This document shows positions 1,990 through 35,657 of a DNA stretch of 41,604 nucleotides, in pieces. Positions within the stretch are counted from its first letter, which is position 1. Every line of letters starts with the position of its first letter. Source of the DNA: Terriglobia bacterium. Its GTDB lineage: Bacteria; Acidobacteriota; Terriglobia; UBA7540. A model generated the notes under the pieces. The model ran no database searches, was not told the origin of the DNA, and was given only the letters and a program-made list of their open reading frames with translations. Position numbers and translations under genes: made by a program. The stretch lies in contig JASHON010000144.1 of NCBI GenBank assembly GCA_030041095.1, forward strand, positions 1 through 41,604. The letters are read 5' to 3'.

Positions 1990-1997
1990 GAAATCTA

Positions 1998-17910: not shown

Positions 17911-17911
17911 T

Positions 17912-17940
17912 TTTATACTATCACAACCGCAGAGTTTAAG
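17912..17940 (-). promoter_or_regulatory. Promoter of the enolase operon
   Basis: On the reverse strand, TATAAA (17917-17912) with CTTAAA 17 bp upstream places the start at about the first base of riboswitch 3. The -35 is weak. The interval from here to 18020 separates two divergent riboswitch-controlled operons. Confidence 0.45.
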
Positions 17941-18051: not shown

Positions 18052-18060
18052 GGTTCGTCG

Positions 18061-18108
18061 AGCGGTGGAGTTCGCTTAAAGCTGCTGTAAGTGGCCAATG
18101 ACTCCTGC
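18061..18108 (+). promoter_or_regulatory. Fluoride (crcB-type) riboswitch 4, leader of metK
   Basis: P1 is AGCG (18061-18064) with CGCT (18073-18076). The loop GGAGT (18067-18071) pairs with ACTCC (18101-18105). TAAA follows P1, a GCTGC..GTGGC stem forms P3, and the 3' end AATGACTCCTGC fits the family. CTCC of the pseudoknot strand could instead pair with GGAG near 18124, around a CGGC-GGA-GCCG hairpin. About 180 bp of leader separates the aptamer from the metK start, and I see no further structure there. Confidence 0.75.
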
Positions 18109-18290
18109 GGCGGAGCCGTCGTGGGAGCGTTGCGTGTTCCTGTCCCCTGCGGTTCTCCCAATCACAACAGAACGGAAAATAAAACGCGTTGTTGAAATTC
18201 GCTCGACGCCGCACAACCGGCGAATGCTGACGTTGGGCTCAAGCAACCGCAATCCTGAACTGCCCGTTCGCCGGAGAAGGAGTACTTCGC

Positions 18291-19430
18291 GTGTCCAAGA
18301 CGAATCCTCATTTCTTTTTCACCTCCGAGTCAGTTACGGAAGGTCATCCTGACAAAATGTGCGATCAGATCGCGGACGCTGTCCTAGACGCTGTGCTTGC
18401 CAGCGATCGAGACGGACGCGTAGCGTGCGAAGCCATGGTCAAGGATTATTCCGTCTATGTGGCTGGCGAACTGACCACATCGGCTGTCGTGCAGGTGAAC
18501 CAAATCGTTCGGAGCACGGTTTCAGACATCGGCTATACGGACGAAGGCGGCTTCACTGCCGATTCTTGCAGGATCTTAGTCAATCTTACGCAACAGAGCC
18601 ACGATATTCACATTGGAGTGGAAACGGGCGGAGCGGGCGACCAAGGCCTGATGTTCGGGTACGCGTGCAACGAAACTGACGAACTCATGCCTTTCACGTT
18701 GATGGCAGCCCACAAACTCTGTCAACGCCTGGCCGAGGCGCGGCGGCAGGGTGTCGTTGATTTCCTGCGTCCCGACGGAAAGGCGCAGATAACGGTTGAA
18801 TATATCGAGGGACGGCCGGCTCGCATTGAGAGCATCGTCGTATCCGCACAGCACAAACCCACCGTATCCATCGATTCCCTTCGGGAGGCCATTCGGGAGT
18901 ACGTGATTAAGCCGGTGCTGCCCGCCCACATGCTCGATGGGAAAACAAAATTCCACATCAACCCAACTGGCCGATTCGTTATTGGAGGGCCGATCGGTGA
19001 CGCCGGCCTGAGTGGACGGAAGATCATCGTGGACACCTATGGCGGTGCCGCACACCACGGCGGCGGTTCCTTTTCTGGCAAAGATCCTACCAAGGTGGAC
19101 AGATCAGCCAGTTACATGGCGCGGTATATCGCGAAGAACATCGTGGCTGCGGGACTTGCCGACCGGGCGGAGGTGCAGTTGGCGTACGCAATTGGCGTCG
19201 CTGAGCCTGTTTCGGTAGCGGTCGATACTTTCGGTACCGGGCGTCTCGACGACGCAGAGTTGGTTAAACTGATTCGGAAGGAGTTTCAATTGACTCCCCG
19301 GGGAATCATTCAGACTCTGAACCTCCTGCGACCGATCTACAGGAAAACCGCCGCTTATGGCCATTTTGGGCGTACCGACCCTGATTTCACCTGGGAGAGG
19401 ACTGACCGGGCCGAGAGCCTCAGGCGGTAA
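18291..19430 (+). CDS. metK: S-adenosylmethionine synthetase
   Basis: MetK makes S-adenosylmethionine from methionine and ATP, using Mg and K and a bound tripolyphosphate. The 379-residue protein carries [15 protein letters not shown] (H19, D21, K22), [45 protein letters not shown] and the C-terminal YGHFGR. It is slightly short at the C-terminus against the usual ~385-400 residues. The start is GTG with GGAGAAGGAG 8 bases upstream. A MetK controlled by a fluoride riboswitch suggests a stress-supplied copy, since fluoride complexes can mimic phosphate at such sites; this is inference. Confidence 0.95.
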
Positions 19431-21269: not shown

Positions 21270-21279
21270 TAGGCGTTAG

Positions 21280-21354
21280 GTGTTGGAGTCCGCCAGTAAT
21301 CCCCCTTCACTCGGGGAAGATGACTCCTGTGAGTCTCAAAGCTCGTCAGGAGTT
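21280..21354 (+). promoter_or_regulatory. Fluoride (crcB-type) riboswitch 5, leader of the MutS-like pair
   Basis: GGTG (21280-21283) and CGCC (21292-21295) form P1. GGAGT (21286-21290) pairs with ACTCC (21324-21328). P3 is CCCC..GGGG, and the 3' strand is GATGACTCCTG. CAGGAGT at 21348-21354 is complementary to ACTCCTG at 21324-21330 and could displace the pseudoknot, as in riboswitch 3. From 21355 to 21548 there is a further untranslated leader with no structure I can name. Confidence 0.78.
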
Positions 21355-21548
21355 GATGATGCCAGCTCGAACATCAAAACCCCACCTTGCTTTATCCGGC
21401 AACTTCAGACCCGATCGGGGAATGTGCCTCGGTATCCTGACGCGCCTGCCTCTGTGAAGACGAGGGCTCTTATCGGATCGTCTCGGCGTATGAACCCGGC
21501 TCTTTGCGGGTCGGCGAGCCGGCGAATGATTTGCCTCGAAGGGCCGCG

Positions 21549-23150
21549 ATGACGGAAGCGCCAAACCAAATCGAGCAGGCCAGCAGGTACACGGCTTTTC
21601 GCAGCATTCTGTTTGACGAATCCCAGACCAATATGCAAAGCGACCGGCAAGATACAGCCGAGTTTTTCGCGGACCTTCACCTCGATCAGATTGTCGCGAC
21701 TATAACGGCTGGCCGTGATGAATACAATCTGGATTCATTTTTCCATATGCCCTTGCGCGATTCCCGGGCCGTCCATTATCGCCAGGATGTCTTCCGCGAC
21801 CTCGAAAATGAATCTTTGCGCGAATGCATCCGGTCGTTTTCAAATGAAATGCGAACGATGCGCATGTTTCTATCCCGGGCCGAAAAGTCTTATTACAAGC
21901 TCCAGAAGCAACGCTGGTTCCTGGATGCTGTGGAGATGTACTGCGGCGCAGCACGGCGCTTAGGGAATTTTCTCGCGAACGCGGACCTGCACGCACGCGG
22001 TCTCCTGGATCTTTGCGACTTTCTGACAAACTATCTCGCTTCCGATGATTTCATCTCTCTCATCGGCGAAACTGAGAAATTGAAAACAGCCCTGTCCACC
22101 ATCACATATTCTCTCCACATTGACGGCAAATGCATCGAGGTCGGCAGGCACAATTCAGAACCGGACTACGGCGCGGACGTGCTCGGAACGTTCGAGAAGT
22201 TCAGGCAGGGCGCAGTCAAGGCGTACGATTTCAACGTCCGGACTACGCCAGAAATGAACCCTATCGAAGCCGCAGTGCTGGAACTGGTGGGTCGGCTTTA
22301 TCCCGAAATTTTCTCTGAACTTGATGCGTACTGCATCCGCCATAACCAATACGTCGACGCGACGATTGCCACTTTCGACCGGGAAGTGCAGTTTTACATG
22401 GCATGGATCGAGCACGTCGATGGGCTAAAACGCGGAGGATTGCCATTCTGCTATCCTGGCGTGAATTCGCGGTCGAAGGACGTGAAAGGGTGCGAGGTAT
22501 TCGATCTCGCCCTGGCGAATGAGCTCATTCGCGAAAATAGACGGGTCGTGACGAATGACTTCTACCTCACGAGTCCAGAACGGATCCTTGTAGTTACGGG
22601 GCCTAATCAGGGCGGGAAAACAACTTTCGCCCGTACCTTCGGGCAACTTCACTATTTAGCCAGCCTCGGCTGTCCCGTGCCGGGCACAGAAGCCAGGCTT
22701 TTCCTCTTCGACCGATTGTTTACGCACTTTGAAAGGGAAGAGGATATTCAAAACCTCAGCGGCAAATTGGAGGATGATTTGCGGCGAATCCGCAGGATCC
22801 TCGAAGCTGCAACCGGAAACAGCATCCTGATTATGAATGAGAGTTTCCTGTCTACAACCCTGGACGACGCTCTGTTTCTCAGCAAGCAGATCATGCAACG
22901 GGTTATCGAACGTGAAATGCTCTGTGTGTGCGTAACTTTCCTTGACGAGCTCGCCTCGTTAACTCAAAACACCGTCAGCATGGCCAGCACCGTGAGTCCT
23001 GCGGACCCGGCACAGCGAATGTTCAAGATCGTCCGGAAGCCTGCCGACGGACTTGCTTACGCCATGGCAATCGCGGAGAAACACCAACTCACTTACGAGA
23101 AGGTGAAACAGCGTATCTCCGAGAACACGCAGAGGCGCAGTGCGTCATGA
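21549..23150 (+). CDS. MutS-like ATPase 1
   Basis: This protein of about 533 residues is related to the lever and ATPase portion of MutS and lacks the mismatch-recognition domain. Walker A is GPNQGGKTT (from 351). The Walker B equivalent reads ILIMNES with E431, Asn replacing the usual Asp. A switch region HFEREEDIQNLSGKLEDDLRRI precedes it. The start ATG at 21549 (MTEAPNQ) is chosen over the TTG at 21504, which adds a basic leader. It overlaps the second MutS-like gene by ATGA. Both follow a fluoride riboswitch; mutS-type genes are a known associate of the crcB motif. Confidence 0.85.
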   Translation: MTEAPNQIEQASRYTAFRSILFDESQTNMQSDRQDTAEFFADLHLDQIVATITAGRDEYNLDSFFHMPLRDSRAVHYRQDVFRDLENESLRECIRSFSNEMRTMRMFLSRAEKSYYKLQKQRWFLDAVEMYCGAARRLGNFLANADLHARGLLDLCDFLTNYLASDDFISLIGETEKLKTALSTITYSLHIDGKCIEVGRHNSEPDYGADVLGTFEKFRQGAVKAYDFNVRTTPEMNPIEAAVLELVGRLYPEIFSELDAYCIRHNQYVDATIATFDREVQFYMAWIEHVDGLKRGGLPFCYPGVNSRSKDVKGCEVFDLALANELIRENRRVVTNDFYLTSPERILVVTGPNQGGKTTFARTFGQLHYLASLGCPVPGTEARLFLFDRLFTHFEREEDIQNLSGKLEDDLRRIRRILEAATGNSILIMNESFLSTTLDDALFLSKQIMQRVIEREMLCVCVTFLDELASLTQNTVSMASTVSPADPAQRMFKIVRKPADGLAYAMAIAEKHQLTYEKVKQRISENTQRRSAS

Positions 23151-24751
23151 AGGCTTTTCTGATGTATCAAAATCGGGACTTCAATCTGATGGCCGTGTTG
23201 CCGCCGGGCGCGGCTGAATTAATACAGGACCTGGAACTCGAGACACTCTTCGCCGCGATGGCGGCCCGCGATCCCTTCCTGCTCGAAGTAGCGAAGAGGG
23301 CCGTTCTGAACAGTCTTGAGGATCCGGAGACGATTCTTTATCGTCAGCAGATACTTGCCGATTGCCTGGCAGGCCCCGCAATGGTCCACGACATCTATCG
23401 CATTGCAGTTGATGCGATCGAGCACGAGAGGAAGGCCTGGGGTTGGATGTCCCCGACGTACCCCGAGGGAACGCTGCATCGATCGGTCGAGCTGCTCCGG
23501 ACCTTTATTGCTCTGCTCAGGAGTCTGAGGCAGATTGCTGACGCTCATCGTTCGGAAGTTCGTTCCGATGGTTTTCGGCAATTGTTCGGCATGTTGACTA
23601 CGGAACTCAGTGACGATTACCTGCGGATCGTCGACGAGCATATTCGCCGACTTGCCTTTCGCCATGGAGTTTTGATGAGCGCCGAACTGGGTGAGGGCAA
23701 CCGGGGGACTCGCTATATACTCCGCAAGCCGCTGGATGAAGGACAGAGCTGGATCGGTCGGGTCCAGGACTGGCTTGGGCAAGTAACTCACCGGCGCCGC
23801 TCGAGCTATGTGTACGAAGTCGACGATCGGGATGAAAGCGGCCTCCAGGCGCTTTCGGAGTTGCGAGGTCAAGGAATCGCTCAGGTTGCCTCCGCGCTTG
23901 CCCAGTCAGCGGATCATATCCTGAGTTTCTTCAAAATGTTGCGATTGGAATTGGGATTTTACGTCGGTTGCCTGAACCTGCGTGAGTCGCTGGCGCGGAA
24001 GGGCGGGCACGTTTGCTTCCCTGAGCCCGCGCGCGCGGACGCGAGGGCGTTCTCCAGCCGCGGACTATACGATGCCTGCCTGTGTCTGAGCATGGAGGAA
24101 AAAGTCATCCCCAACGATGTGGCCGCCGATGGCAAGACGCTGGTGATGATCACTGGCGCCAACCGAGGCGGCAAGTCTACGTTCCTACGCAGCGCGGGCC
24201 TTTCGCAACTGATGATGCAGTGCGGCATGTTCGTGCCGGCGCATTCGTTCCTCGCCAATGTCTGCTCCGGTATTTTTACGCACTTTAAGCGAGAGGAGGA
24301 CGCAGGCATGAAGAGTGGGAAGCTTGACGAGGAGCTCTTCAGAATGAGCTCCATCGTCGAAAATTTGACTCCGAACGCCATGGTCTTGCTCAATGAGTCG
24401 TTCGCCTCAACCAATGAAAGAGAAGGCTCAGAGATTGCAAGACAGATTGTACGAGCCTTGCTGGAAAGCGGCGCTAAGGTTTTTTACGTAACCCACATGT
24501 TCGATTTAGCCAATGGGTTCTGCGGCGCGAAGATGGACACTGCCCTGTTCCTTCGGGCCGAACGGCTTGCCGACGGCCGGCGGACGTTCCGACTGGCCGA
24601 AGCCGAACCACTGCCTACGAGCTACGGCAAAGACCTTTACTGGCGGATCTTTGGCGAGTCGGAACGAGATACCGGAATTACCTCTCTGGAAGGGAGACAC
24701 GATTTAGGCGAGAGCAATCTTCCGGCGATCAAATCCGGACAGCTTGCATAA
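23147..24751 (+). CDS. MutS-like ATPase 2
   Basis: This 534-residue paralogue of the preceding gene has the same lever plus ATPase layout and no mismatch-binding domain. Walker A is GANRGGKST (from 337). The switch reads HFKREEDAGMKSGKLDEELFRM, and the Walker B equivalent is VLLNESFASTNEREG with E417. It starts at ATG in an ATGA overlap, so the two products are probably made in equal amounts and may form a heterodimer, as MutS family members are dimers. No nuclease (Smr) domain is present, unlike MutS2. The DNA or other substrate is unknown. Confidence 0.85.
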   Translation: MKAFLMYQNRDFNLMAVLPPGAAELIQDLELETLFAAMAARDPFLLEVAKRAVLNSLEDPETILYRQQILADCLAGPAMVHDIYRIAVDAIEHERKAWGWMSPTYPEGTLHRSVELLRTFIALLRSLRQIADAHRSEVRSDGFRQLFGMLTTELSDDYLRIVDEHIRRLAFRHGVLMSAELGEGNRGTRYILRKPLDEGQSWIGRVQDWLGQVTHRRRSSYVYEVDDRDESGLQALSELRGQGIAQVASALAQSADHILSFFKMLRLELGFYVGCLNLRESLARKGGHVCFPEPARADARAFSSRGLYDACLCLSMEEKVIPNDVAADGKTLVMITGANRGGKSTFLRSAGLSQLMMQCGMFVPAHSFLANVCSGIFTHFKREEDAGMKSGKLDEELFRMSSIVENLTPNAMVLLNESFASTNEREGSEIARQIVRALLESGAKVFYVTHMFDLANGFCGAKMDTALFLRAERLADGRRTFRLAEAEPLPTSYGKDLYWRIFGESERDTGITSLEGRHDLGESNLPAIKSGQLA

Positions 24752-24767
24752 GAAAACCGACAGTCTT

Positions 24768-24903
24768 TACAAGCTGCGGAAAAACTCAACGACGCCACGA
24801 ACGTAGCGCCGGCATCTTGCCGGCCTCCGTTGAGTTGAAGGGAGTTGCCGGCTGGAAGCCGGCGCTACGTCAACTCCCGAAAGAGTTTTTCCGCAGCCCG
24901 TTT
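24768..24903. repeat. Palindromic intergenic repeat, copy B
   Basis: This has the same design as copy A. A tip TACAAGCTGCGGAAAAACT is matched by AGTTTTTCCGCAGCCCGT. Inside lie GTAGCGCCGGCATCTTGCCGG and GCCGGCTGGAAGCCGGCGC. It lies just 3' of the second MutS-like gene and could serve as its transcription end. Confidence 0.85.
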
Positions 24904-25219
24904 CGCCCGACACGGGAGGTCATTGTGGAGGAGACATTCCATCGGCATCGAGTGCGGCCCGCAGATGCAGGATTCCGTCGAACCGAGAGTGTGGCGAAGA
25001 AGGGCCGCACGGTCTGCGAGCGAGCCTCGACAGGATATCGTGCAAATCGTCTCTGCGCTTGCGGCTTTTGAGCAGTGGGTACGAGGCTAAAGTTAGAGGA
25101 TTTTGACGAAGCTTTGAAGTATCACTTCGCTCGGAGCCCAAACTGATCCTGGGATTCGGAGGCCCTAAGATTGGGGTTGCGGAAAAGTTCTCCTCTCATT
25201 TAAACTGTTTATTTATATC
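24904..25219. other. Intergenic stretch before the hydrogenase-like operon
   Basis: No convincing gene is present. A short open stretch near 25092-25147 reads KLEDFDEALKYHFARSPN and then stops, perhaps a gene remnant. A promoter can be proposed from TTGCGG (25177) and TTTAAA (25199), 16 bp apart, feeding the riboswitch. Confidence 0.4.
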
Positions 25220-25275
25220 GGCGATGGAGCGCCGCCCTAAATAATCCCAGAATGCGCGGGACTGATGGCTCCTAC
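25220..25275 (+). promoter_or_regulatory. Fluoride (crcB-type) riboswitch 6, leader of the hydrogenase-like operon
   Basis: GGCG (25220-25223) pairs with CGCC. The loop GGAGC pairs with GCTCC (25268-25272), a compensated change from GGAGT/ACTCC. P3 is a TCCC..GGGA hairpin, and the 3' strand is CTGATGGCTCCTAC. The GGCTCC strand is also the first half of an intrinsic terminator, which gives a clear mechanism: fluoride binding holds that strand and transcription continues. This is the clearest of the six copies. Confidence 0.92.
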
Positions 25276-25298
25276 CCTGTGGGGTAGGGGCCTTTTTT
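25267..25298 (+). terminator. Riboswitch-controlled intrinsic terminator
   Basis: GGCTCCTACCC and GGGTAGGGGCC form a strong hairpin followed by six T residues, 16 bp before the first start codon. Its 5' arm overlaps the aptamer's pseudoknot strand, so aptamer and terminator exclude each other. Confidence 0.92.
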
Positions 25299-25314: not shown

Positions 25315-26265
25315 ATGACTTCCCACATTCTCTTCAACCTTTTGCAGGTTGCCGTGGTGATGGCTTTTGCGCCACTCCTTGCGGGGGTTACAAATCGCCT
25401 CAAGGAAGTGATCCAGTCTAAGCATGGGCCGAACATCCTGCAACCTTATTGGGATATATGGAAGCTATTTCATAAGGACGAGGTGATTTCCGACCAGAGC
25501 TCATGGATATTTCGCTTCACGCCTTACTTGGTGTTTATAACTCCCCTATTCGTCACTTTGCTGATTCCGGTTCTCACCAGCTACCCACTCTTCTTCGCCT
25601 TTATGGGCGACATGTTAGGGGCTGGATTCGTCCTCGCACTGGGCGGTTTTTTCTTTACGCTGGCGGCGGTGGATACAGCAAATCCTTACGGTCCTATGGG
25701 GGCAAGCCGGACGCGGCTGGTGGGCTTCCTGGCAGAGCCCGTGTTCATGATTGTTTTCTTCACGGTTTCCTTTATTGCCGGCTCAACCATCCCCTACATC
25801 GTGCAGCAACAATGGGTGCAGCCCCTGTCCCGCTTCTTTGAGCCTGCTCACGTTCTGATCATACTCGCCTTCTTCATTTTGATCCTTGCGGAGGGCGGAC
25901 GCATTCCGGTGGACAATCCCTCCGGTCACTTTGAGTTGGCGATGATCGACGAGTCCAAGGGACTCGAGTATTCCGGCCCTGCTGCGGCGCTCATGAAGTG
26001 GGGCGGTGAAATGAAGCTCTTTGTTTTGATCTGCGTTTTTCTCAATGTGCTGTTTACGCCATGGGGACTGGCTTCCACGACGGCAGTCAGTGACGTGCTG
26101 CTGGCCATTCCGCTGGTTCTTTTCAAGATTCTGATTTTCGTGGTGGTTTTAGTGATCGTGGAGAGCTCGCTGGCTAAGCTGCGATTGTTCCGCATCAGCG
26201 AGTTTCTAGGCGTGGCCTTCATCACGTCAGTTGCAGCGATGATTATGTGGCTGTTTGCGATGTAG
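25315..26265 (+). CDS. HyfC/NuoH-like membrane subunit
   Basis: This is a 316-residue integral membrane protein of the HyfC/HycD/NuoH family, with about eight hydrophobic segments. It joins the soluble redox arm to the antiporter-like subunits. Characteristic stretches are SKHGPNILQPYWDIWKLF, FFFTLAAVDTANPYGPMGASR and EGGRIPVDNPSGHFELAMIDESKGLEYSG. The start ATG at 25315 has GGAG upstream; an in-frame TTG six codons earlier lies in the terminator tail and is rejected. It is the first gene of the seven-gene riboswitch-6 operon. Confidence 0.9.
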   Translation: MTSHILFNLLQVAVVMAFAPLLAGVTNRLKEVIQSKHGPNILQPYWDIWKLFHKDEVISDQSSWIFRFTPYLVFITPLFVTLLIPVLTSYPLFFAFMGDMLGAGFVLALGGFFFTLAAVDTANPYGPMGASRTRLVGFLAEPVFMIVFFTVSFIAGSTIPYIVQQQWVQPLSRFFEPAHVLIILAFFILILAEGGRIPVDNPSGHFELAMIDESKGLEYSGPAAALMKWGGEMKLFVLICVFLNVLFTPWGLASTTAVSDVLLAIPLVLFKILIFVVVLVIVESSLAKLRLFRISEFLGVAFITSVAAMIMWLFAM

Positions 26266-26330
26266 GCGCCGGTCGCGAATATCCGGCCGCCAGTGATGGG
26301 CCGGCGCCACAGGGCTTGAAAGGAGATTGA

Positions 26331-27011
26331 ATGGCAGGCGAATCATTTCTCTATCAGTTCAACGCTCTAACCGGAGGGCTGTTTCTCCTGTGCACGTTTG
26401 GCATGGTAGCGACCCGACAGGTTCAGGGCTGCATGCGATTTTTCATCTTACAGTCGCTCTTCCTGGCGGCCTCGGCGTTCCTGCTCGGGATCCATCCCGT
26501 TTTGTGGGGCCTGCTCGCAGTGGCAGCCATCAATGTCGTCAACAAGCCCATCCTGGTACCGTGGCTTCTTCGCCGCACCATTCCGGAGGAAATCCACACG
26601 CGGCGAGAAATCTCGCAGGTTCTCAACATACCGGCTGCGCTCCTGCTGGCGCTGGCGATTGCGGTGGGCGCCTACTTTCTCACGTTGCCGTGGGTTAACC
26701 TGGCTGGAACTTCGGCCGCGGGAGTGAACATTCCTATCGGACTGGCCGCTTTGCTGCTCGGCGCCTTCACGCTCACGGTGCGGCGGGAGGCGGTGCCACA
26801 GTTGCTCGGTCTGCTCGCCATGGAAAATGGCGCTTTCTTTACCAGCATTGCCATCGCTCCGGAGTTACACCTTCTCGTTGAGCTCATCGTCGCGTTCGAC
26901 GTCTTGATTGCAGTGTTTGTGATCGGCGTGCTCACTCGGGCGATTCACAAGCAGATTGGCACTACCCAAGTTGGCGCACTCGCCGCACTGCGAGAGGAGT
27001 CTTCCCGATGA
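26331..27011 (+). CDS. HyfE-like membrane subunit
   Basis: This 226-residue membrane protein has about six hydrophobic helices. The NuoK-like C-terminal part includes MENGAFFTSIAIAPELHLLVELIVAFDVLIAVFVIGVLTRAI, with buried acidic residues typical of proton-path subunits. Length and layout match hydrogenase-4 component E. The ATG has AAAGGAG placed well upstream. The 3' end overlaps the next gene by ATGA. Confidence 0.85.
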   Translation: MAGESFLYQFNALTGGLFLLCTFGMVATRQVQGCMRFFILQSLFLAASAFLLGIHPVLWGLLAVAAINVVNKPILVPWLLRRTIPEEIHTRREISQVLNIPAALLLALAIAVGAYFLTLPWVNLAGTSAAGVNIPIGLAALLLGAFTLTVRREAVPQLLGLLAMENGAFFTSIAIAPELHLLVELIVAFDVLIAVFVIGVLTRAIHKQIGTTQVGALAALREESSR

Positions 27012-28786
27012 CGGTCTTCGCAATCGTATTGTTGCCGCTCCTTGCGGCCGTCTTGTGCTGGATACCCGCTGTCGGCAAGCGAGCCGCTGCTCCCGTTACA
27101 TTCGTCTCTTCCGCAGGACTCCTGGCGCTTACGATTCATGTAACCGCGCGCGTCGTCGTTCTCGGTAAAGTGGTGGCGCTCGCCAACTGGGTGGAAGTGG
27201 ACTCTTTCGGCGCCCTGATTCTCCTTCTGGTCAGTAGTGTGGGCGTGCTGGCGTGCATCTACTCGCTGGGTTACATGCCAAAGATGACGCACGATTCGTC
27301 GATCCTTCACCACTATTACGGGAACTTTAATCTCTTCATCTTCTCCATGGTGCTTGTTCCAGTCGTGGTCAGTCCGAGCATTGAGTGGTTGGCCGTGGAG
27401 TTCACAACGCTCCTGTCTGTCCTCTTGGTGGGTTTCGAGAGCAATTCAGAGGCCCTCGAGGCGGCGTGGAAATACGCAGTTCTGACCTTGACGGGCGCGG
27501 CGATCGCGCTATTTGGCTTTCTCCTGCTCTTTTGGGCGATGCAAAAGGGCGGAGGAGGCAGTTACACCTGGGCTGGCTTGGCTGCTGTTGCCGCGAAAAT
27601 GCCGCCGGTAGTTTTGAAGACTGCGTTCTTAATGATCCTGGTTGGATTCGGAGCCAAAGTCGGCCTGGTACCACTACATACCTGGTTGCCGGACGCCCAC
27701 AGCCAGGCTCCCACTCCCATCTGCGCACTCCTTTCGGGCGTTGAAACCACGGCGGTCCTCTATGTGATCTTGCGTCTCATGCCGATCGTGCGCCCTGCAC
27801 TCGGTGGTGCCATCGAGCGATGGGCCTTGATTTTTGGCCTTCTCTCGGTTGGAGTGGCGGCGTTCCTGCTGATTCAGGTGCATGACTACAAGCGCCTTTT
27901 CGCCTACTCGACCGTCGAACACATGGGGATCATTCTCACGGCTGCCGGCTTTGGAGGCGCTGCAGCCCACTACGGCGCTATGTATCAGATACTGGCCCAC
28001 GCCGCGACCAAGTCTTTTTGCTTCTTTGCGGCAGGCGCCGTTCTTCTCTTAACAGGAGAGCGCGATATCGCCTCCATCAGGGGACTAATGCAGCGCTCGC
28101 GCGTAGCCGGCTCTGCGCTGCTGGTGGGAGCGCTGGCGATCGCTGGAGCACCGCCCTTTGTCGTGTTTCTGGGGGAGTTTTTGATTCTCAGGGCAGGACT
28201 CAGCGAGGGCCGTTACGTTGCCGTTGGGCTGCTTGCGGTGTTTCTGGTCGTCGCCTTTTTCGGCATCCTTCTGCACGTCAATCGTATGGTCTTCAGCCGA
28301 GTTGCGGGCGAGGCTCGGGTTTTGACCGAGCCGGAACCGCCCACGGGTGAGGAGATTGAGGGAGAAGAGCGACTGGGAAGCCCTCCTTGGATATCGGTCT
28401 CACTAACGCCGGTGGAACGTCCGACGGGGACCGCGTCCGCGCACTTGGCCGAGGCTCTCGAGGCCATGCCCAGCCCGACCGCGAGTCAGGTTGTGCGTGC
28501 TGAGGGCCACAGCTCCGGGCCGGGAGCGTCGGAAGCGCATCCTGCATCGCTCGAAGCGTCCAGCGCGTCCTCATCCCCAAGCTCTGTCCGTACGCGCACG
28601 GATGGACTGTCTGCACCTCCAGTCGTCGCGGATCCAAAGTTTCCGTCCGGATTTGCTGGCGGGCTGCCGTGGCCCTGCGTGCTGACGCTCCTGCTGGCCG
28701 CGATTCCAGTAGTCGTATTTGGTGTTTACGTCCCGCACCCATTGTACGAGCTCTTGAGCCGGGCGGCGGCGGTCATCGGAGGATGA
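27008..28786 (+). CDS. HyfF-like antiporter subunit with low-complexity insert
   Basis: This 592-residue NuoL/M/N-type ion-translocating subunit has the family core GFGAKVGLVPLHTWLPDAHSQAPTPICALLSG and KRLFAYSTVEHMGIILTAAGFG, with the lysines and glutamates used in proton transfer. It is longer than usual HyfF (about 490-530). The excess lies between the last conserved helices, roughly residues 435-550, and is rich in Pro, Ser, Glu and Ala (EPEPPTGEEIEGEERLG, ASSASSSPSSVRTR). Membrane sequence resumes after it with LPWPCVLTLLLAAIPVVVFGV. The insert is probably a flexible soluble loop. Confidence 0.88.
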   Translation: MTVFAIVLLPLLAAVLCWIPAVGKRAAAPVTFVSSAGLLALTIHVTARVVVLGKVVALANWVEVDSFGALILLLVSSVGVLACIYSLGYMPKMTHDSSILHHYYGNFNLFIFSMVLVPVVVSPSIEWLAVEFTTLLSVLLVGFESNSEALEAAWKYAVLTLTGAAIALFGFLLLFWAMQKGGGGSYTWAGLAAVAAKMPPVVLKTAFLMILVGFGAKVGLVPLHTWLPDAHSQAPTPICALLSGVETTAVLYVILRLMPIVRPALGGAIERWALIFGLLSVGVAAFLLIQVHDYKRLFAYSTVEHMGIILTAAGFGGAAAHYGAMYQILAHAATKSFCFFAAGAVLLLTGERDIASIRGLMQRSRVAGSALLVGALAIAGAPPFVVFLGEFLILRAGLSEGRYVAVGLLAVFLVVAFFGILLHVNRMVFSRVAGEARVLTEPEPPTGEEIEGEERLGSPPWISVSLTPVERPTGTASAHLAEALEAMPSPTASQVVRAEGHSSGPGASEAHPASLEASSASSSPSSVRTRTDGLSAPPVVADPKFPSGFAGGLPWPCVLTLLLAAIPVVVFGVYVPHPLYELLSRAAAVIGG

Positions 28787-28787
28787 A

Positions 28788-30377
28788 ATGCTCAACTTGG
28801 CGGGAATGGCGGCAGAGGCGGAGCAAAACTGGCCCGGACTGGTTCAAGCGTGGGTAGACCGGCGAACACCGCTCTGCGAGCTTCGTTGCCCTCCCTCGGA
28901 AATCTTGCCCGAGGTCGTGCATTGGGTTGTGGATGAACTCCTTTTCCGATTCGCCGGTCTAATTGTGGAGCAGGAACCGCAAGAGTGGGATCTCCGGTAC
29001 CTTTTTTACTCAATCCAAGGCCCTCCGCGATGGGCCCGCCTTCGGGTGCGTCAACCTCTCGACACGCCAAAGTTTCCGAGCATCAGCCCTCAGGTTCATG
29101 CGGCAGACTGGTATGAACGGGAAGCGGAAGACCTTTATGGTGTCACCTTTGAGGGACATCCCCGTCTAGGCGACTTTGTGTTGCACGACGACTTGTGGCA
29201 GGAAGCCGTTGCTCCCATGCGGCGCGATTTCGACGAAAAAGCCGCCCTCGCCGAACGGAGACCGGACCTGGACTGGAAGTTCCGACGTATTGTACACGAT
29301 CCTGGCGCGTTTGCGATGCCGGTGGGCCCCATCTATTCCGGGGTGACAGAGTCGGTTCAGTTTCTTCTTGAAACCGTTGGTGAGGATGTGATCCGCGCCT
29401 TTCCGAGGCTTTTTTACAAGTACCGGGCTATCGAGAAGATTGCAGAGGGGCGGAACGTTGATGGATGCCTGCTTCTCGCGGAACGCTTTGCTGCGACGAC
29501 TGCCTTTGCCCACGCTCTGGCCTACTGCCAAGCCGTCGAGACGATCTGCCGCGTGAAACTTCCTCCGCGAGCTCACGCCCTGCGGGTCCTCGTGAGCGAG
29601 CTGGAGAGATTCCGACATCATGTTGGAGTGATTCACGACATTTGCGAATCGACCGGGCTGTCCGTGGCGGCCAGCCAGGCAGCGATCCTCGAGGAAGACT
29701 TGCTGAGGCTGAGCGGTGATTTAACGGGGCACCGCTACCTTTTTGGCCTCGCGATTCCCGGCGGTCTCAGCCGCAATTTGAAAGACGCTGACTGCATCGA
29801 TGCCGTCGAAATGGCTGTGAAGATATTAAAAAGGCTTCAGGAACTTGACGACGGCTTGCGCTATTCCAGCAGTTTCCTCGATCGGTTGGAAGGGGTTGGG
29901 ATTATATCGCCCGGAAAGGCCTGGGAGTTTGGTCTGGTGGGGCCTATGGGCCGAGCCTCGGGCTTGGGAGGTGACTTGCGCAAGGCTCAGCCTTACGCGA
30001 GCTACGAGCATTTTGAATTCGATGTGCCTTTGGAGTCCGAAGGAGACGGCTTCGCACGCTTGCGGGTGCTGATGGCGGAAGCCGCTCAGTCAGTTCGCAT
30101 CTTGTGCCAAGTTCCAGTCCGGCTTGAGGCCGGAGACGTCGCAGTGGGCGTCAGTTTGCAGTCAGGCCGCGCTCTCGGGTGGGTAGAAGCTCCTCGCGGC
30201 GCCACCTTCCACGGCTTGCACTTAGACGAGTCTGGTGTGGTTCTCCGATACCGTATGATCACGCCGTCCTTCGTTAACTGGCACGGCTTCCATCTGGCGG
30301 CCGAAAATTTCGCTTTTCAGGATTTTCCCATCATCTTGGCGACAGTCGGACTGTCGGCGACCGAGAACGACCGGTAG
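28788..30377 (+). CDS. HyfG/NuoCD-like large subunit lacking the [NiFe] cysteines
   Basis: This 529-residue protein fuses a NuoC-like domain (about 1-170) to a NuoD/hydrogenase-large-subunit domain. In true group 4 hydrogenases two CxxC pairs bind the NiFe centre. Here the first pair is replaced by ERFAATT (A235 and T238 at the Cys positions). The C-terminal DPCxxCTDR is replaced by GLSATENDR, closer to the GEVDR end of complex I NuoD. The protein therefore cannot bind a normal [NiFe] site, and the complex fits the Ehr class. AYCQAVET and ELERFRHHVGVIHDI preserve the fold. It starts 1 bp after the antiporter gene stop. Confidence 0.9.
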   Translation: MLNLAGMAAEAEQNWPGLVQAWVDRRTPLCELRCPPSEILPEVVHWVVDELLFRFAGLIVEQEPQEWDLRYLFYSIQGPPRWARLRVRQPLDTPKFPSISPQVHAADWYEREAEDLYGVTFEGHPRLGDFVLHDDLWQEAVAPMRRDFDEKAALAERRPDLDWKFRRIVHDPGAFAMPVGPIYSGVTESVQFLLETVGEDVIRAFPRLFYKYRAIEKIAEGRNVDGCLLLAERFAATTAFAHALAYCQAVETICRVKLPPRAHALRVLVSELERFRHHVGVIHDICESTGLSVAASQAAILEEDLLRLSGDLTGHRYLFGLAIPGGLSRNLKDADCIDAVEMAVKILKRLQELDDGLRYSSSFLDRLEGVGIISPGKAWEFGLVGPMGRASGLGGDLRKAQPYASYEHFEFDVPLESEGDGFARLRVLMAEAAQSVRILCQVPVRLEAGDVAVGVSLQSGRALGWVEAPRGATFHGLHLDESGVVLRYRMITPSFVNWHGFHLAAENFAFQDFPIILATVGLSATENDR

Positions 30378-30391
30378 AGAGGTCCAATAAC

Positions 30392-31147
30392 ATGAGTCGG
30401 TGGGTTATAAGCGGCTTGCGCCAGGGAGTGGTGACGACCTGTTATCCCACGCGCATGGAGACGGCAAAGGGAACGTCGCCTGGCTTGCCAGCGCGTTTAA
30501 CTCCCATGGCCGACGAGTTTGGCCAGGAACTGGTGGACGTTTGTCCCACTGGAGCGATCCACTTCGAGCGTGGAGAGGCGCGCGTGGATTACGGCCGATG
30601 CATTCATTGCTTCCGGTGTTCTCGTTCGGCGCGCTACGTCCTGGAGTGGGAGTCCGGATTCGAGTGGGCGCGGTTCGCAAGTGACGGGTCGAATTTTGTA
30701 AAGGGCGCCGCCTCCTGGCCAAAGGCGTTCCGGAAGTCGATGCACATCCGAGTGGTGGACGCGGGCGACTGTGGCGCGTGCTTGAACGAGGTCAAGCAGC
30801 TCAACAATCCGTACTACAACATGCATCGTTTGGGCTTTTTCATCACTCCCACACCACGCAAGGCGGATATTCTCCTGGTCGTGGGACCCGTCAACGACCA
30901 TACGCGGTTGCCCTTGCAAGCAGCGTACGACGCAATGCCTACGCCGAAGCTGGTGATGGCGGTGGGGGCATGCGCGCTCTCTGGCGGGGTTTTTGGCCCC
31001 AGTTTTGTCACGGGCACAGGTGTGAAAGATGTTTTGCCGGTAGATATCGAGGTGCCGGGATCTCCGCCTCCGCCCTTGGCAATCCTGCACGGTTTGCTGG
31101 TCGCCGCTGGTCGCAAGCCACCGATGCCCGGGCAGGATGGGCGGTAG
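30392..31147 (+). CDS. Ferredoxin-NuoB fusion subunit with an altered proximal cluster
   Basis: This 251-residue fusion has an N-terminal ferredoxin remnant with C51 (DVCPTGAI) and C70, C73, C76 (GRCIHCFRC), enough for one [4Fe-4S] cluster rather than the usual two of HyfH/NuoI. The C-terminal NuoB/HyfI part carries C127 and C130 (DCGAC) and C194 (GACALSGGVFG). The fourth ligand, normally in VPGCPPRP, is S224 in VPGSPPPP (codon TCT, 31061-31063). Ser can occasionally ligate iron, so the cluster may be altered rather than absent. Together with the missing NiFe site, this argues against hydrogen chemistry. Confidence 0.85.
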   Translation: MSRWVISGLRQGVVTTCYPTRMETAKGTSPGLPARLTPMADEFGQELVDVCPTGAIHFERGEARVDYGRCIHCFRCSRSARYVLEWESGFEWARFASDGSNFVKGAASWPKAFRKSMHIRVVDAGDCGACLNEVKQLNNPYYNMHRLGFFITPTPRKADILLVVGPVNDHTRLPLQAAYDAMPTPKLVMAVGACALSGGVFGPSFVTGTGVKDVLPVDIEVPGSPPPPLAILHGLLVAAGRKPPMPGQDGR

Positions 31148-31160
31148 TTAAAAGTTGACC

Positions 31161-33377
31161 ATGTTCTTTACAGTGTTCGCAGTGCTCTTCCTGGCTTTCA
31201 GCGTCGCAGGAATAGTGTGTGCACTGCTTTCGCCCGAACGCGGGGTGGCTCTAAGCCTGGGTTGCTTCGGCGGGGTTGCGTCCGTTGCCATGGGAGCGGT
31301 CGGCGTCTGTGCCCTTATCTCCGACACCCCGTTTGAAGTACGGTTGTGGTCCGTTCCCACGGTCGGGCCTTTGATGTTGTCCGTGGACAAGCTGTCTGGG
31401 TTGTTTCTCCTTGTCTCCGCGTTTGTGTTCCTTGCCACGTCTATTTATTCAGTGGAGTATCTCCAGGCCTATCTGAAGCACTTCAATCTTCGAACGTTGA
31501 GTGTGTGCTACTTCGCAATCATGCTCGCGGTGGGTCTGGTTCTGAGCGCGGCTGACGCGTTGACATTTCTAGTGAGCTGGGAGCTGATGTCGCTATTTGG
31601 CTACGCTCTGGTCAACTATCAAAAGCGTGATGAGCAATCGACGCGCCCCGGTTACCTGATGTTGGTTATGGGAGAAGCGGGCTTCGTCGCGGTGGTATTG
31701 GCATTCCTTGTGATCGGAGGTCGGGGGCCGGGCAACCTTCTTTTCAGCAGCCTGCGCTTGCATTCGGCCTCGCTGGGATGGCATGCGCGGTGGGCGGTTT
31801 TTTTGCTTTCCTTCTTTGGATTTGGCGTGAAAACGGGCTTGGCGCCGTTCAATCGTTGGCTGCCGCAGGCCCATCCGATCGCACCAGCGAACGTTTCCGC
31901 CGTGCTTTCGGGCGTATTACTGAATTTAGGGATCTATGGCATCATCCGAGTCAACGCTGACCTCACGCCCCTGGCAACCGCCGGTCCAGGCTTGGTGGTT
32001 CTTCTCGTTGGAGCTTTTTCCGCTCTGATGGGCATCATGTACGCCAACCGCGATAACGACATGAAAGCAATGCTGGCGAACAGCTCCATCGAAAATATGG
32101 GGATCATCACGACCGCGCTGGGCGCCGGGCTGGTGTTCATGACCTTTCACCAGCCTCTCTTGGCAGGAATAGCGTGGATCGCCGCCTTCTATCAGATGAC
32201 CAATCATTCTGTCTACAAGTCTCTCCTCTTTTTTGGCGCAGGAGCAATTGACCGCAACAGTGGGACGCGCCTGATGGACCGTCTCGGTGGGCTTAGCAAA
32301 CATATGCCGCTGCTGGCTGCGCTTTTTCTCGCGGGCGCGCTATCCATCTGTGCGTTACCTCCCACGAACGGTTTCGTGAGCGAATGGCTCACGCTGCAGT
32401 GCCTGCTGCAAAGCTCCGTGCTGGCATCGCGCTCAGTAAAAGTGCTCTTCGCCCTTGCCGGCGCCGGCTTGGCGCTCACGGCCGGACTCGCCGTAACGTG
32501 CTTTGTCAAAGCATATGCCATGACGTTTCTCGGTATCCCCCGCTCCAATCAGGCTCGACAGCGCGCGCGCGTGCGCTTCCCGATTCGGCTGGCGATGGGG
32601 CTGGGCGCTGTTTCATGCCTGCTGCTGGGAGTGCTTCCAACTTACGTCATTCCCATCCTTGGCCGAGTTTCGGAACTCTTGACCGGAGTGAACGCTGCCG
32701 CTGCGCTCGTGCCGCCATTCTTTAACGGTGCACCAGGACATTCCCGTCTTCCTCATTCTTTCCTGAGTGACTTTCACAACCTGGGGGCCCAGGTCGGGCA
32801 AAATCTTCTTCCGGCCCCGGGGCTTGTCGTGCTGCATCGCGGGCACGCGCAAAACCCTGTTGTCTTTGCCATGTCCACCTCCTACATGCTTCCGGTGCTC
32901 ATTTTGCTTGCGTCAACGCTCTTCCTCGCGGTGCGGTTTGTCCTGGCGCGGCGCTCCAAGACCGTACGCAAGCCTGTCTGGGCCGGGGGGCTTGCATCGC
33001 TTTTCCCGGAGCTAACGTATACAGCAACCGGGTTCTCTAGTCCCGTGCGCGTGACATTCAACGCAGTGTTTCATCCTCAAATGTCTGAGGAACGGCTTGA
33101 ACTCATTGCCGGCCATTTTCGGAACAGCATCACTCGGGTCGTTGGCGAAGTTCATGTTTTCGATAGAGTCCTCTTCCAACCCCTCGTCAACCGCGCGTCT
33201 CATATTGCCCGAACACTCTCGCGGATGCACCATGGCCGGTTGAATGCCTATTCCGCTTATGTGCTCGGTACGCTCTTTGTCGTTTTGTTGCTGAGCCGGA
33301 CGCAAGTGGAAGAGCACGTGGTTCTGAGTCCAGCTCTGATTCTGATCGTCGCCTTGATTCTCGATCGCTTGCTGTGA
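31161..33377 (+). CDS. HyfB/NuoL-like antiporter subunit 1
   Basis: This large membrane protein of about 738 residues has some 14 core helices and a C-terminal extension. Family motifs are LVSWELMSLFGYALVNYQ, FGFGVKTGLAPFNRWLPQAHPIAPANVSAVLSGVLLNLGIYGI and SSIENMGIITTALGAG. The C-terminus, ELTYTATGFSSPVRVTFNAVF, matches the HyfB-specific tail. The ATG at 31161 is preferred to the TTG two codons upstream; neither has a good ribosome-binding site. A paralogue follows directly. Confidence 0.88.
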   Translation: MFFTVFAVLFLAFSVAGIVCALLSPERGVALSLGCFGGVASVAMGAVGVCALISDTPFEVRLWSVPTVGPLMLSVDKLSGLFLLVSAFVFLATSIYSVEYLQAYLKHFNLRTLSVCYFAIMLAVGLVLSAADALTFLVSWELMSLFGYALVNYQKRDEQSTRPGYLMLVMGEAGFVAVVLAFLVIGGRGPGNLLFSSLRLHSASLGWHARWAVFLLSFFGFGVKTGLAPFNRWLPQAHPIAPANVSAVLSGVLLNLGIYGIIRVNADLTPLATAGPGLVVLLVGAFSALMGIMYANRDNDMKAMLANSSIENMGIITTALGAGLVFMTFHQPLLAGIAWIAAFYQMTNHSVYKSLLFFGAGAIDRNSGTRLMDRLGGLSKHMPLLAALFLAGALSICALPPTNGFVSEWLTLQCLLQSSVLASRSVKVLFALAGAGLALTAGLAVTCFVKAYAMTFLGIPRSNQARQRARVRFPIRLAMGLGAVSCLLLGVLPTYVIPILGRVSELLTGVNAAAALVPPFFNGAPGHSRLPHSFLSDFHNLGAQVGQNLLPAPGLVVLHRGHAQNPVVFAMSTSYMLPVLILLASTLFLAVRFVLARRSKTVRKPVWAGGLASLFPELTYTATGFSSPVRVTFNAVFHPQMSEERLELIAGHFRNSITRVVGEVHVFDRVLFQPLVNRASHIARTLSRMHHGRLNAYSAYVLGTLFVVLLLSRTQVEEHVVLSPALILIVALILDRLL

Positions 33378-33515
33378 GTTTCGCGCGATCCCTGCATTTC
33401 ACGAGCGACAGCCGTATGCATTTGAAACGATCAGGCCGCATACCCTGTTGGCTTATGGCGTCGAGAGCGGCCAGCCTGGAAAGAATCAGCTCCGAAGAGG
33501 TTAATTCATTTACGT

Positions 33516-35657
33516 ATGAACACGGTCCATAGTCTGCTCGTATGTTTTTTCGCTTTGTGCTGCGTCGGAATCGTGCTTCCGGTGTTTGTTCCGACACGGA
33601 GGGGCCCCCGCGTCGTCGCGTGGGTCGGCTCCGTGGCGTCGCTGGCGCTGTGCGCCATCGGCGGAGCAACACTGGTCTCCTCCACAGTGTTTCAAGCGCA
33701 ACTCTGGGTGTTGCCGGTGCTCGGACCTCTGACATTCAGCGTCGATTCTCTTTCAGCTTTGTTCTTGTTGGTGGCGGGAGTAGTCTTTTTCGCTACCAGC
33801 ATCTTCACCGCTCGCTTTCTCGATCAATATGCCGGTGACTTCAACCTCCGGGCCTTCGCCGTCACCTATCATGGCTTGCTCGTCTCAGTGGCTGTCATTC
33901 TTCTGGCAGGTGATGCAGTGCTGTTCTTGATGGGATGGGAGGCGATGTCGATACTTGCTTTCCTTCTCGTCAATTGCCAGGGCAGCTACGGCAGAAACCC
34001 CGTCGCCGGTTATTCGATGCTGACCATGGGCGAAGCGGGTTTCGTCGCAGTGGCGCTAGCGTTTTTGCTGCTCGGGAACCATTCCGGTGGATTGTCGTTC
34101 GCGTCGATCCGCACAGCGTCGGTGGTAACAGGTTCGGGCTTACGGTGGTCAGTTTTTCTTCTCTCCTTTTTCGGATTCAGTGTGAAAGCTGGCTTGGTAC
34201 CGTTTAACCGGTGGATGGCCAGGGTGTACGCCGCTGCGCCCGCGAACGTGTGTGCGCTCCTTTCGGGGGCTCTCCTGAATCTAGGGATTTATGGGATCGT
34301 CCGAGTTGACGGCGACTTGCTGCGCCCCTCCTCAGTTCTTCCCGGCTTGATCGTGCTGGGCATTGGAGCTATCTCTGCCCTTGTCGGCATCCTCTATGCC
34401 AATCGGGAACGGGACATGAAGACCATGCTTTCGGAAAGCTCCATCGAGAATATGGGCGTTGTGGCAGCCGGCTTGGGGGCTGGCTTCATCTTCCGGGCTT
34501 CCCATGTTCCGGTGCTCGCAGGGATCGCTTTCATTGCTGCCTTGTATCAGATGCTGAACCACTCGGTCTATAAATCTCTGCTGTTCTTTGGGGCGGGAGC
34601 CGTCGAGTCAAGCACCGGAACTTGCGACATGGATCGGCTTGGCGGCTTGATCAAGTCGATTCCCTGGATTTCCGCCTTCTTCCTCGTCGGAGCCATCTCT
34701 ATCGCTGCTCTCCCGCCGTTGAACGGTTTCGTCAGCGAGTGGCTGACGCTCCAGTCACTGTTGCTGAGCGCCAGTCTGAAGTCCACCGGAGTGAAAGTGG
34801 CTTTCGCCATCAGCGGCGCTGCACTTGCCCTGACTGCCGGACTTGCCGTCACGTGCTTCGTAAAGGCCTACGCAATGAGCTTCCTTGGAATGTCTCGATC
34901 CGAAGGCGCGCCCCGCAGCGGGAGCATTCACCGTTCGATGCGTGTTGCAGCCGCCTTCCTCGCCGTGCTTTGCGTGGCTCTCGGTGTGCTTCCGACTTAT
35001 GTCATCTCGGCTCTCGATGGACCGGTCCAACGGTTGGCAGGATCGAGTGCCGCAGGAGCGCTTGCTCCGCCGTTCTTCGCGACGAGCCCGCAGCACGCCC
35101 AACTGCCACCAGCTTTTGTCTCCGACTTTCATAACCTCGGCGCTCAGATCGGCCAGAACATCCTGCCGGGACCAGGCTTGGTCGTCCTGCATCGGGGCGC
35201 TGCCCGAAATCCGGTGGTGTTTGCCATGTCCACCAGCTACATGATGGTCGTGCTCCTGCTTCTAGTGCTGGGCGCATTTCTCCTGGCCCGTAAGCTTGTT
35301 GGCCGGAAACGAAGCGCCGTGCGGAAAGCCGTGTGGGCGGGCGGATCTCGGCAATTGCTACCTGAGCTCACCTATACGGCTACGGGCTTTTCGAGTCCGG
35401 TGCGGGTGACGTTTAGCGCCGTCTTTCACCCCACAGAAATTGAAGACAGCAGCCAGATGGTGGGCCAGCACTTTCGCATCGCGATTCGAAGACAAGTGGA
35501 GGAAGTACACGTGCTCGATCGGTTGTTTTATCGGCCTATCGAATCGGCCGCAACCTGGTTCGCTCGCGCACTCGCCCGGATGCATCACGGAAGGCTGAAC
35601 GCTTACGTCGCTTACGTATTGCTTGCATTGATTGTGCTGCTGCTTTTGGGCCGCTGA
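33516..35657 (+). CDS. HyfB/NuoL-like antiporter subunit 2
   Basis: This 713-residue protein is clearly paralogous to the preceding one along its whole length: LTFSVDSLSALFLLVAGVVFFATSIFTARFL, LMGWEAMSILAFLLVNCQ, FSVKAGLVPFNRWMARVYAAAPANVCALLSGALLNLGIYGIVRV, and the tail ELTYTATGFSSPVRVTFSAVF. With HyfF this makes three antiporter-like subunits in the complex, a feature of hydrogenase-4 and Ehr-type machines. The 138 bp gap to its neighbour shows no terminator. It is the last gene of the operon; copy C of the palindromic repeat lies 180 bp downstream. Confidence 0.88.
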   Translation: MNTVHSLLVCFFALCCVGIVLPVFVPTRRGPRVVAWVGSVASLALCAIGGATLVSSTVFQAQLWVLPVLGPLTFSVDSLSALFLLVAGVVFFATSIFTARFLDQYAGDFNLRAFAVTYHGLLVSVAVILLAGDAVLFLMGWEAMSILAFLLVNCQGSYGRNPVAGYSMLTMGEAGFVAVALAFLLLGNHSGGLSFASIRTASVVTGSGLRWSVFLLSFFGFSVKAGLVPFNRWMARVYAAAPANVCALLSGALLNLGIYGIVRVDGDLLRPSSVLPGLIVLGIGAISALVGILYANRERDMKTMLSESSIENMGVVAAGLGAGFIFRASHVPVLAGIAFIAALYQMLNHSVYKSLLFFGAGAVESSTGTCDMDRLGGLIKSIPWISAFFLVGAISIAALPPLNGFVSEWLTLQSLLLSASLKSTGVKVAFAISGAALALTAGLAVTCFVKAYAMSFLGMSRSEGAPRSGSIHRSMRVAAAFLAVLCVALGVLPTYVISALDGPVQRLAGSSAAGALAPPFFATSPQHAQLPPAFVSDFHNLGAQIGQNILPGPGLVVLHRGAARNPVVFAMSTSYMMVVLLLLVLGAFLLARKLVGRKRSAVRKAVWAGGSRQLLPELTYTATGFSSPVRVTFSAVFHPTEIEDSSQMVGQHFRIAIRRQVEEVHVLDRLFYRPIESAATWFARALARMHHGRLNAYVAYVLLALIVLLLLGR

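Follow-up and report, generated by a model that had tools for sequence, protein, structure and literature searches.

A clade of hydrogenase-like membrane complexes without Ni–Fe ligands and its association with fluoride riboswitches

The window, by which we mean the whole 41,604-nt stretch of DNA that was analysed, corresponds to a single contig in a draft genome of 4.88 Mb. Seven genes follow one another on the same strand at 25315–35657 (+), namely those for a NuoH/HyfC-like, a HyfE-like and a HyfF-like membrane subunit, a large subunit, a small subunit, and two HyfB-like subunits. The operon, its leader and the adjoining genes discussed below are as follows.

15269–17295 (−): metallophosphoesterase and enolase genes behind a fluoride riboswitch at 17849–17917 (−) (Pfam, aptamer search)
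21504–24751 (+): tandem of two divergent MutS-like ATPase genes, with a weak riboswitch candidate at 21270–21336 (19.9 bits)
25211–25281 (+): fluoride riboswitch aptamer candidate (RF01734) in the operon leader (Rfam, 33.8 bits)
25267–25292 (+): terminator-like stem over the 3' strand of the aptamer, 11 pairs with a T6 tail (terminator scan)
25315–26265 (+): NuoH/HyfC-like membrane subunit (Pfam NADHdh, 3.1e-33)
26331–27011 (+): HyfE-like membrane subunit (NCBIfam NF008556, E 4.8e-20, under its curated cut-off; no match in the Pfam search)
27008–28786 (+): HyfF-like antiporter-type subunit (Pfam Proton_antipo_M, 3.5e-49; Lys/His/Glu channel residues conserved)
28788–30377 (+): large subunit, a NuoC–NuoD fusion without Ni–Fe ligands (ORF, Pfam, PDB, clade alignment, AlphaFold2 model)
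29490–29501 (+): first ligand site, A235-A236-T237-T238 instead of CxxC (HycE and clade alignment)
30354–30365 (+): second ligand site, S523-A-T-E526 instead of CxxC (clade alignment)
30392–31147 (+): small subunit, a ferredoxin-like domain (one cluster) fused to a NuoB/MbhJ-like domain (Pfam, PDB, alignment)
30542–30619 (+): Cys51, Cys70, Cys73 and Cys76, likely ligands of a single ferredoxin-type [4Fe-4S] cluster (conservation)
30770–31063 (+): proximal (N2-like) cluster, with Cys127, Cys130 and Cys194 kept and S224, no Cys, at the fourth position (alignment)
31155–33377 (+): HyfB-like antiporter-type subunit, copy 1 (Pfam, NCBIfam, channel-residue alignment)
33516–35657 (+): HyfB-like antiporter-type subunit, copy 2 (Pfam, NCBIfam, channel-residue alignment)

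The first gene of the operon likely starts at the ATG at 25315, while the listed ORF opens at a TTG at 25297. Before the operon, a palindromic GC-rich repeat of the REP type lies at 24798–24873, to which Rfam gave weak microRNA and sRNA matches only.

The large subunit (529 amino acids) matched Complex1_30kDa, Complex1_49kDa and, over a short stretch, NiFeSe_Hases in Pfam; a first-pass annotation of the sequence had described it as a NuoC–NuoD fusion. Its nearest relative in the PDB by sequence was E. coli HycE (7z0s_E, E 1.3e-57); in the alignment of the two proteins, AATT of the large subunit is placed opposite CGIC of HycE, and S523 and E526 are opposite the C-terminal CxxC. Both CxxC sites are thus gone, just as had been claimed, and the residue numbers and the C-terminal GLSATENDR had been quoted correctly. 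An AlphaFold2 model of the large subunit, which was built with 68 of the 81 family sequences introduced below (pLDDT 88.7, pTM 0.91), was superposed on HycE over 522 residues at 2.4 Å (Z 46.4), and the complex I large subunits came next.

An alignment of five close members served as the query for a scan of genome contigs; the best 80 of the 132 relatives obtained were used, which gives 81 members including the window. None of the 81 large subunits has all four Cys ligands, and one or two of them are left in only four members (L046, L047, L081 and L086). The residues at the Ni–Fe ligand positions are Ala (49), Ser (20), Asn (8), Cys (2) and Thr (2) at 235; Thr (39), Ser (36), Ala (4) and Cys (2) at 238; Ser (80) and Cys (1) at 523; and Glu in all 81 at 526. 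Around these positions, E232, R233 and Q511-D512 are invariant in all members and H242 is kept in 80 of them, from which it follows that the site is not decaying; as judged from the alignment, the former Ni–Fe site of this clade is a conserved pocket of another kind. ERF and FQDFPI are signatures of the clade large subunit, which ends at a conserved DR. When GPIYSG and ERFAATT of the window were compared with GPNHPSAHG and DRIEYLGG of NuoCD, furthermore, the His and Tyr at what we take to be the quinone-binding positions of NuoD were found not to be conserved.

In the PDB, the small subunit matched MbhJ of Pyrococcus MBH (6cfw_J) best, and subunits of 6u8y, which we take to be Pyrococcus MBS (Mbx), matched both the large and the small subunit, a likeness by sequence only. 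Cys51, Cys70, Cys73 and Cys76 are kept in 78, 78, 77 and 78 of 78 small subunits, respectively; the cysteines in the ferredoxin-like part suffice for one [4Fe-4S] cluster instead of the usual two, which is likely of the ferredoxin type. At the proximal cluster, Cys127, Cys130 and Cys194 are kept in 78, 75 and 78 of 78 small subunits, and 32 of 77 have a Cys at the fourth position (224). The Cys residues at 207 and 224 tend to exclude each other; namely, 33 of the 77 proteins have only C207, 28 only C224, four both, and 12, including that of the window, neither (Fisher p 1.4e-7, uncorrected for kinship). The fourth ligand of the proximal cluster therefore seems to have been relocated in part of the clade, with a non-Cys ligand or an open site in the rest. 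Given that the Fe–S cluster cysteines are conserved and that the fourth ligand seems relocated in part of the clade, electron transfer in the complex has probably been retained. No constant oxidoreductase partner was found across the loci of the clade.

In the membrane arm, the equivalents of K229 and H338 of NuoL are Lys and His in 100% of the 72 HyfF-like and 80 HyfB-like proteins; at the position of K399 all of these proteins have Glu, which HyfB and HyfF have too, and the equivalent of E144 is Glu in 62 of the 72 HyfF-like and 74 of the 80 HyfB-like proteins. Also, charged residues common to NuoH or HyfC (e.g., NuoH 157, 213, 220 and 228) are present in 66–67 of 67 NuoH-like proteins, the comparison covering positions conserved in 95% or more. 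Because these channel residues are conserved, the channels of the membrane arm look functional, and the first-pass annotation was right in describing the membrane partners as intact.

Partner genes were searched for in the 81 sources by tblastn at 1e-4, and no match was obtained to HycB, HyfA, HycH, HycI, HypA–D, NuoE, NuoF and NuoG with the E. coli queries, nor to FdhF; since several of the sources are short contigs, these absences hold only for the DNA compared. Three weak matches of the HypE type were seen in L102, L050 and L064. A genuine hydrogenase was rejected on account of the ligands missing in 81 of 81 members together with the partner genes missing from the DNA compared, and it is thus well supported by these comparisons that the clade is not a hydrogenase.

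In comparison with formate hydrogenlyase-1 (HycB–G) and hydrogenase-4 (HyfA–I) of E. coli, the clade shares the HyfC/E/F/B-like membrane set and a full-length HycE-like predicted fold but differs in having no Ni–Fe ligands and no matches to HycB/HyfA, HycI/HycH and FdhF in the loci, in that the large subunit stops at the conserved DR, and in that the ferredoxin part, which has lost one cluster, is joined to the small subunit. With complex I, it has in common the NuoC–NuoD fusion, the NuoB-like and NuoH-like subunits and the channel residues, whereas NuoE/F/G gave no match in the clade loci and the His and Tyr of the NuoD quinone site are not kept. Closer are the energy-converting hydrogenase-related (Ehr) complexes, to which the first-pass annotation had assigned the operon, and which are described in the relevant passages of the literature as having no CxxC motifs and an unknown function (PMC10284858); another paper, in the part concerned, also describes Ehr without Ni–Fe ligands and proposes a possible partnership with formate dehydrogenase for other Ehr lineages (PMC6349859). 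The assignment stands insofar as the clade has a group-4-like large subunit without the CxxC ligands and Mrp antiporter-like membrane subunits. The ligand positions, however, are mostly S, T, S and G in the Ehr-type sequences but A/S, T/S, S and E in the clade, which is also distinguished by the ERF and FQDFPI signatures, a fluoride-riboswitch leader and a separate position in the tree.

This tree contains 59 large subunits, among them 35 of the 81 members, and its root was not inferred. The clade members form one group (SH-aLRT 100, with a stem of 1.47 changes per column) apart from the four-Cys sequences and from 15 Ehr-type sequences, which come from the same phylum, published Ehr sequences not being in the tree. 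The rows of the tree carry 12 phylum labels, to which the branching does not conform; this suggests that the clade has spread by transfer between phyla, although the labels come from metagenome bins and can be wrong. All of the 80 loci (the best 80 of 132) are from metagenome-assembled genomes, with no named cultured carrier among them, and all of the 231 matching plasmid records were below 60% identity, the highest among the 25 matches listed being 36.3%. At E 1e-160 or better, the large subunit was found in 5 of 396 genomes of the phylum of the window, its own included, and at E 1e-100 in 1 of 398 Pseudomonadota genomes, namely the search centre itself; the clade thus looks rare.

In the leader of the operon, the fluoride aptamer candidate scored slightly under the Rfam gathering cut-off of 34 bits, with an E value of 2.5e-7 in a 1.1-kb search and 2.6e-7 in the search of its own genome. 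The strand at the 3' end of the aptamer, GGCTCCTACCC, doubles as the 5' arm of the terminator-like stem at 25267–25292, and this stem forms in the predicted fold; two terminator-like sites were found against 0.8 expected in shuffles, and the stability of the leader fold is not significantly above that of shuffled sequences (z −1.6, 11 of 200 shuffles as stable). With the 3' strand of the aptamer lying within the terminator-like stem, the layout is that of a fluoride ON switch, which transcriptional fluoride riboswitches have according to the pertinent sections of two papers (PMC11077080; PMC8004769). From the sequence and the known riboswitch mechanism, we infer that the leader is a fluoride ON-switch platform. 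In total, six fluoride riboswitch candidates are present in the window, at 1991–2055 (+), 12809–12877 (−), 17849–17917 (−), 18052–18114 (+), 21270–21336 (+) and 25211–25281 (+); their scores are 36.1 (the sole one over the cut-off, that at 17849–17917), 33.8, 33.2, 33.2, 24.3 and 19.9 bits in descending order. The rest of the genome has a single candidate of 17.3 bits, and the 41.6-kb contig looks like a fluoride-response island.

The control by fluoride noted in the first-pass annotation turned out to be nearly universal in the clade. Twelve other loci were examined with Rfam, and all 12 have an aptamer above the cut-off upstream of their operon. An aptamer model was then built from 19 training sequences, two of them from the window and 17 from nine loci, and run over all 81 sources, giving 133 matches at E up to 0.1. 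Sources were counted as assessable if they include the operon start together with 150 nt or more of preceding sequence (68 of 81). Of these 68, 67 have a fluoride riboswitch upstream and on the strand of the operon, 65 of them clearly; with cruder gene calls, the count was 52 of 53. The riboswitch is within 400 nt of the operon start in 58 of the 68 sources and farther up (506–3340 nt) in nine, in seven of which same-strand genes such as those for CBS-DUF190, dynamin-like and enolase proteins lie in between. One of the far riboswitches (L039) has a single opposite-strand ORF call within the gap, and the less clear ones are those of L042, where a 1.4-kb gap with opposite-strand ORFs follows a same-strand GTPase gene, and L054. 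The sole miss among the 68 is L089, where no riboswitch was found with 219 nt before the gene in view. In 13 of the 81 sources the operon start is off the contig; 10 of these 13 are without a riboswitch match, and they are all of the sources without any such match. Between aptamer and gene, 34 of 58 leaders have a T-run, which is a crude indication of a terminator, and the remaining leaders may therefore act on translation or differ in another way.

The leaders of the clade scored 17.7 to 57 bits with the trained model. The best score was 14.6 bits in 19 Ehr/hydrogenase loci of the same phylum and the hyc, hyf and nuo loci of E. coli, and 15.2 bits in 11 HyfG-type loci; the 19 loci are those used out of 22 non-clade relatives, and three on short contigs (G295, G215 and G376) were left out. 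No fluoride riboswitch was found in the 13 Ehr-type loci among these 19, and Rfam detected no fluoride aptamer in three Ehr loci. No riboswitch match comparable to those of the clade was obtained in the 17 loci with verified four-Cys large subunits, which comprise 10 of the 11 HyfG-type loci, 5 of the 19 same-phylum loci, and the hyc and hyf loci of E. coli; the typing of the ligand motif did not include L186 or one control, L122. The fluoride link of the clade is thus well supported by these searches.

The list of fluoride-responsive genes reportedly has its primary source in Baker et al. 2012. Formate hydrogen lyase is named among the riboswitch targets in the relevant passages of Weinberg et al. 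2010 and of a 2024 review, where it is read with a shift to fermentation (PMC11139923), and the label is repeated in parts of two further papers, one of which is PMC8004769. Among the matches listed from the literature on fluoride riboswitches or crcB and on Ehr or group 4 hydrogenases, no connection between Ehr and fluoride was found. As far as the present sequences can tell, the label “formate hydrogenlyase” does not fit this clade, which questions its repetition in the corresponding passages of the riboswitch papers and the review.

Across the 81 sources, the neighbours of the operon include dynamin-like GTPases (29), CBS-DUF190 proteins (17), enolase (16), MutS-like proteins (11), CrcB (10) and metK (5), where the clusters were named by Pfam on one or two proteins each. 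Enolase and CrcB are known fluoride genes, and several of the neighbours are Mg-nucleotide or Mg-phosphate enzymes, a class poisoned by fluoride. The window itself has four related GTPase genes (2156–4225, 5005–6831, 6834–8651 and 13505–15256), the one at 5005 with a Pfam Dynamin_N match, and this cluster beside the complex may serve to repair membranes in the presence of fluoride. MutS-like genes of the cluster to which those in the window belong are present in 10 other sources. Also, an S-adenosylmethionine synthetase gene is found at 18291–19430 behind the candidate at 18052–18114 (24.3 bits), and metK occurs in four other sources.

In the genome of the window (95.5% complete), CrcB was not found; three CLC genes are present, one of which (C23) could be CLC-F by its motif. 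For 50 of the 80 loci, the host genome was searched for CrcB, and 27 of these 50 genomes have it. The genome also has a complex I cluster on another contig, with matches to nuoA, E, F, G, J and K and a NuoCD-type ORF. Contig C24 (L159) carries a different NiFe hydrogenase set with a NAD-binding subunit and hypB, hypC, hypD and hypF. The check for hydrogenase maturation genes that had been proposed was therefore uninformative: hypB, hypC, hypD and hypF exist, but beside another NiFe hydrogenase, and the absence of hyp genes was dropped as an argument.

The sequence comparisons support the loss of the Ni–Fe ligands, the retention of the Fe–S and channel residues, and the association with the fluoride riboswitch, and from these we infer the switching, redox activity, electron donor and acceptor, pumping direction and physiology of the complex. 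The reading that we favour, and regard as reasonably probable, is that the complex is a fluoride-induced, redox-driven ion pump of a clade of its own (F-Ehr), which offsets the acid and depolarisation arising from HF entry and F− export. Intracellular fluoride would bind the aptamer in the 5' leader, and the bound pseudoknot would hold the GGCUCC strand, so that the terminator is blocked and the seven-gene operon is transcribed. The HycE-fold large subunit and the two-cluster small subunit would form a hydrophilic arm, mounted on a membrane arm whose channels are of the antiporter type. The single ferredoxin-type cluster may be fed by a soluble carrier, for which reduced ferredoxin is the likeliest candidate, and from this cluster electrons would pass through the proximal cluster to an acceptor in the pocket of the invariant E232, R233 and E526 and the near-invariant H242 and S523. 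The energy released would drive H+ (or Na+) outward. As HF enters and dissociates and F− leaves via Fluc or CLC-F, the net result would be proton entry and a loss of membrane potential; according to the pertinent part of a review, fluoride accumulation lowers the proton-motive force and the cytoplasmic pH, and the exporters depend on that force (PMC11139923). Outward pumping would then offset the net proton import and uphold the membrane potential needed by the Fluc and CLC-F exporters, and a redox-driven pump, unlike an F-type ATPase, would be independent of Mg-nucleotide chemistry. The suggestion of the first-pass annotation, that ions may be pumped to counter acid brought in as HF, would fit the conserved channel residues. 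Against the pump reading, the most frequent neighbours, dynamin-like GTPases and MutS-like ATPases, do not point to ion pumping, and the genome of the window already has a complex I.

The same conserved clusters and channels would also serve a complex running in reverse, in which the ion gradient pushes electrons onto a low-potential carrier for repair in fluoride stress. Energy-converting complexes of this superfamily can run either way, and the host has complex I as well; HF cycling, however, already drains the gradient, and fluoride induction of a further consumer is hard to rationalise, which makes this reading unlikely. A somewhat lower probability is given to a secondary cation/proton antiporter of the Mrp type for pH homeostasis with a vestigial redox arm. 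There are indeed three antiporter-type subunits in the window, and Na+/H+ antiporters are a common class of fluoride-riboswitch targets in the relevant section of the review (PMC11139923), but cluster cysteines kept in 75–78 of 78 small subunits and a strongly conserved pocket are unlike a vestige.

The novel pocket and the swap of the fourth ligand could also be taken as signs of an enzyme in which chemistry comes first, reducing a metabolite or fluorinated compound of fluoride stress, possibly at the proximal cluster; the neighbourhoods give no clue to a substrate, and the membrane channels would be left unexplained, so that we consider this quite improbable. Another candidate would be a genuine formate hydrogenlyase or hydrogenase-4 that helps cells to turn to fermentation in fluoride stress. 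Among solved structures HycE is the closest relative, and the passages of the riboswitch papers on crcB/fluoride targets list formate hydrogen lyase, but this reading is hardly conceivable with no member having all four Ni–Fe ligands, no HycB/HyfA, FdhF or maturation homologues in the 81 sources save the three weak HypE-type matches, and no comparable riboswitch in the 17 four-Cys loci. In an indirect comparison, furthermore, the formate hydrogenlyase genes of E. coli are down with perfluorooctanoate while crcB is moderately up at another time point, and the part of that paper concerned does not link formate hydrogenlyase to a riboswitch (PMC12595759).

If the ion pump idea is true, cells would meet fluoride by export together with a nucleotide-independent ion pump that pays for the export. 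We propose more tentatively, as a view that could well prove wrong, that what is called “formate hydrogenlyase” in the fluoride super-regulon represents a separate class of energy-converting oxidoreductase for fluoride stress, namely a redox-driven pump that has spread between phyla and reduces its acceptor near a proximal Fe–S cluster with a movable fourth ligand. To our knowledge, no Ehr complex before it would have had its environmental trigger identified. This clade of Ehr carries its own physiological label in the form of a fluoride sensor on its mRNA, and its role is hence directly testable.

The tandem duplication of the HyfB-like gene in the window (31155–35657) is shared in part; in a rough count, truncated loci included, 13 of the 81 sources have two copies. 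Near the right end of L106, in the vicinity of CrcB and CBS-DUF190 genes, the opposite strand encodes a second copy of the large subunit.
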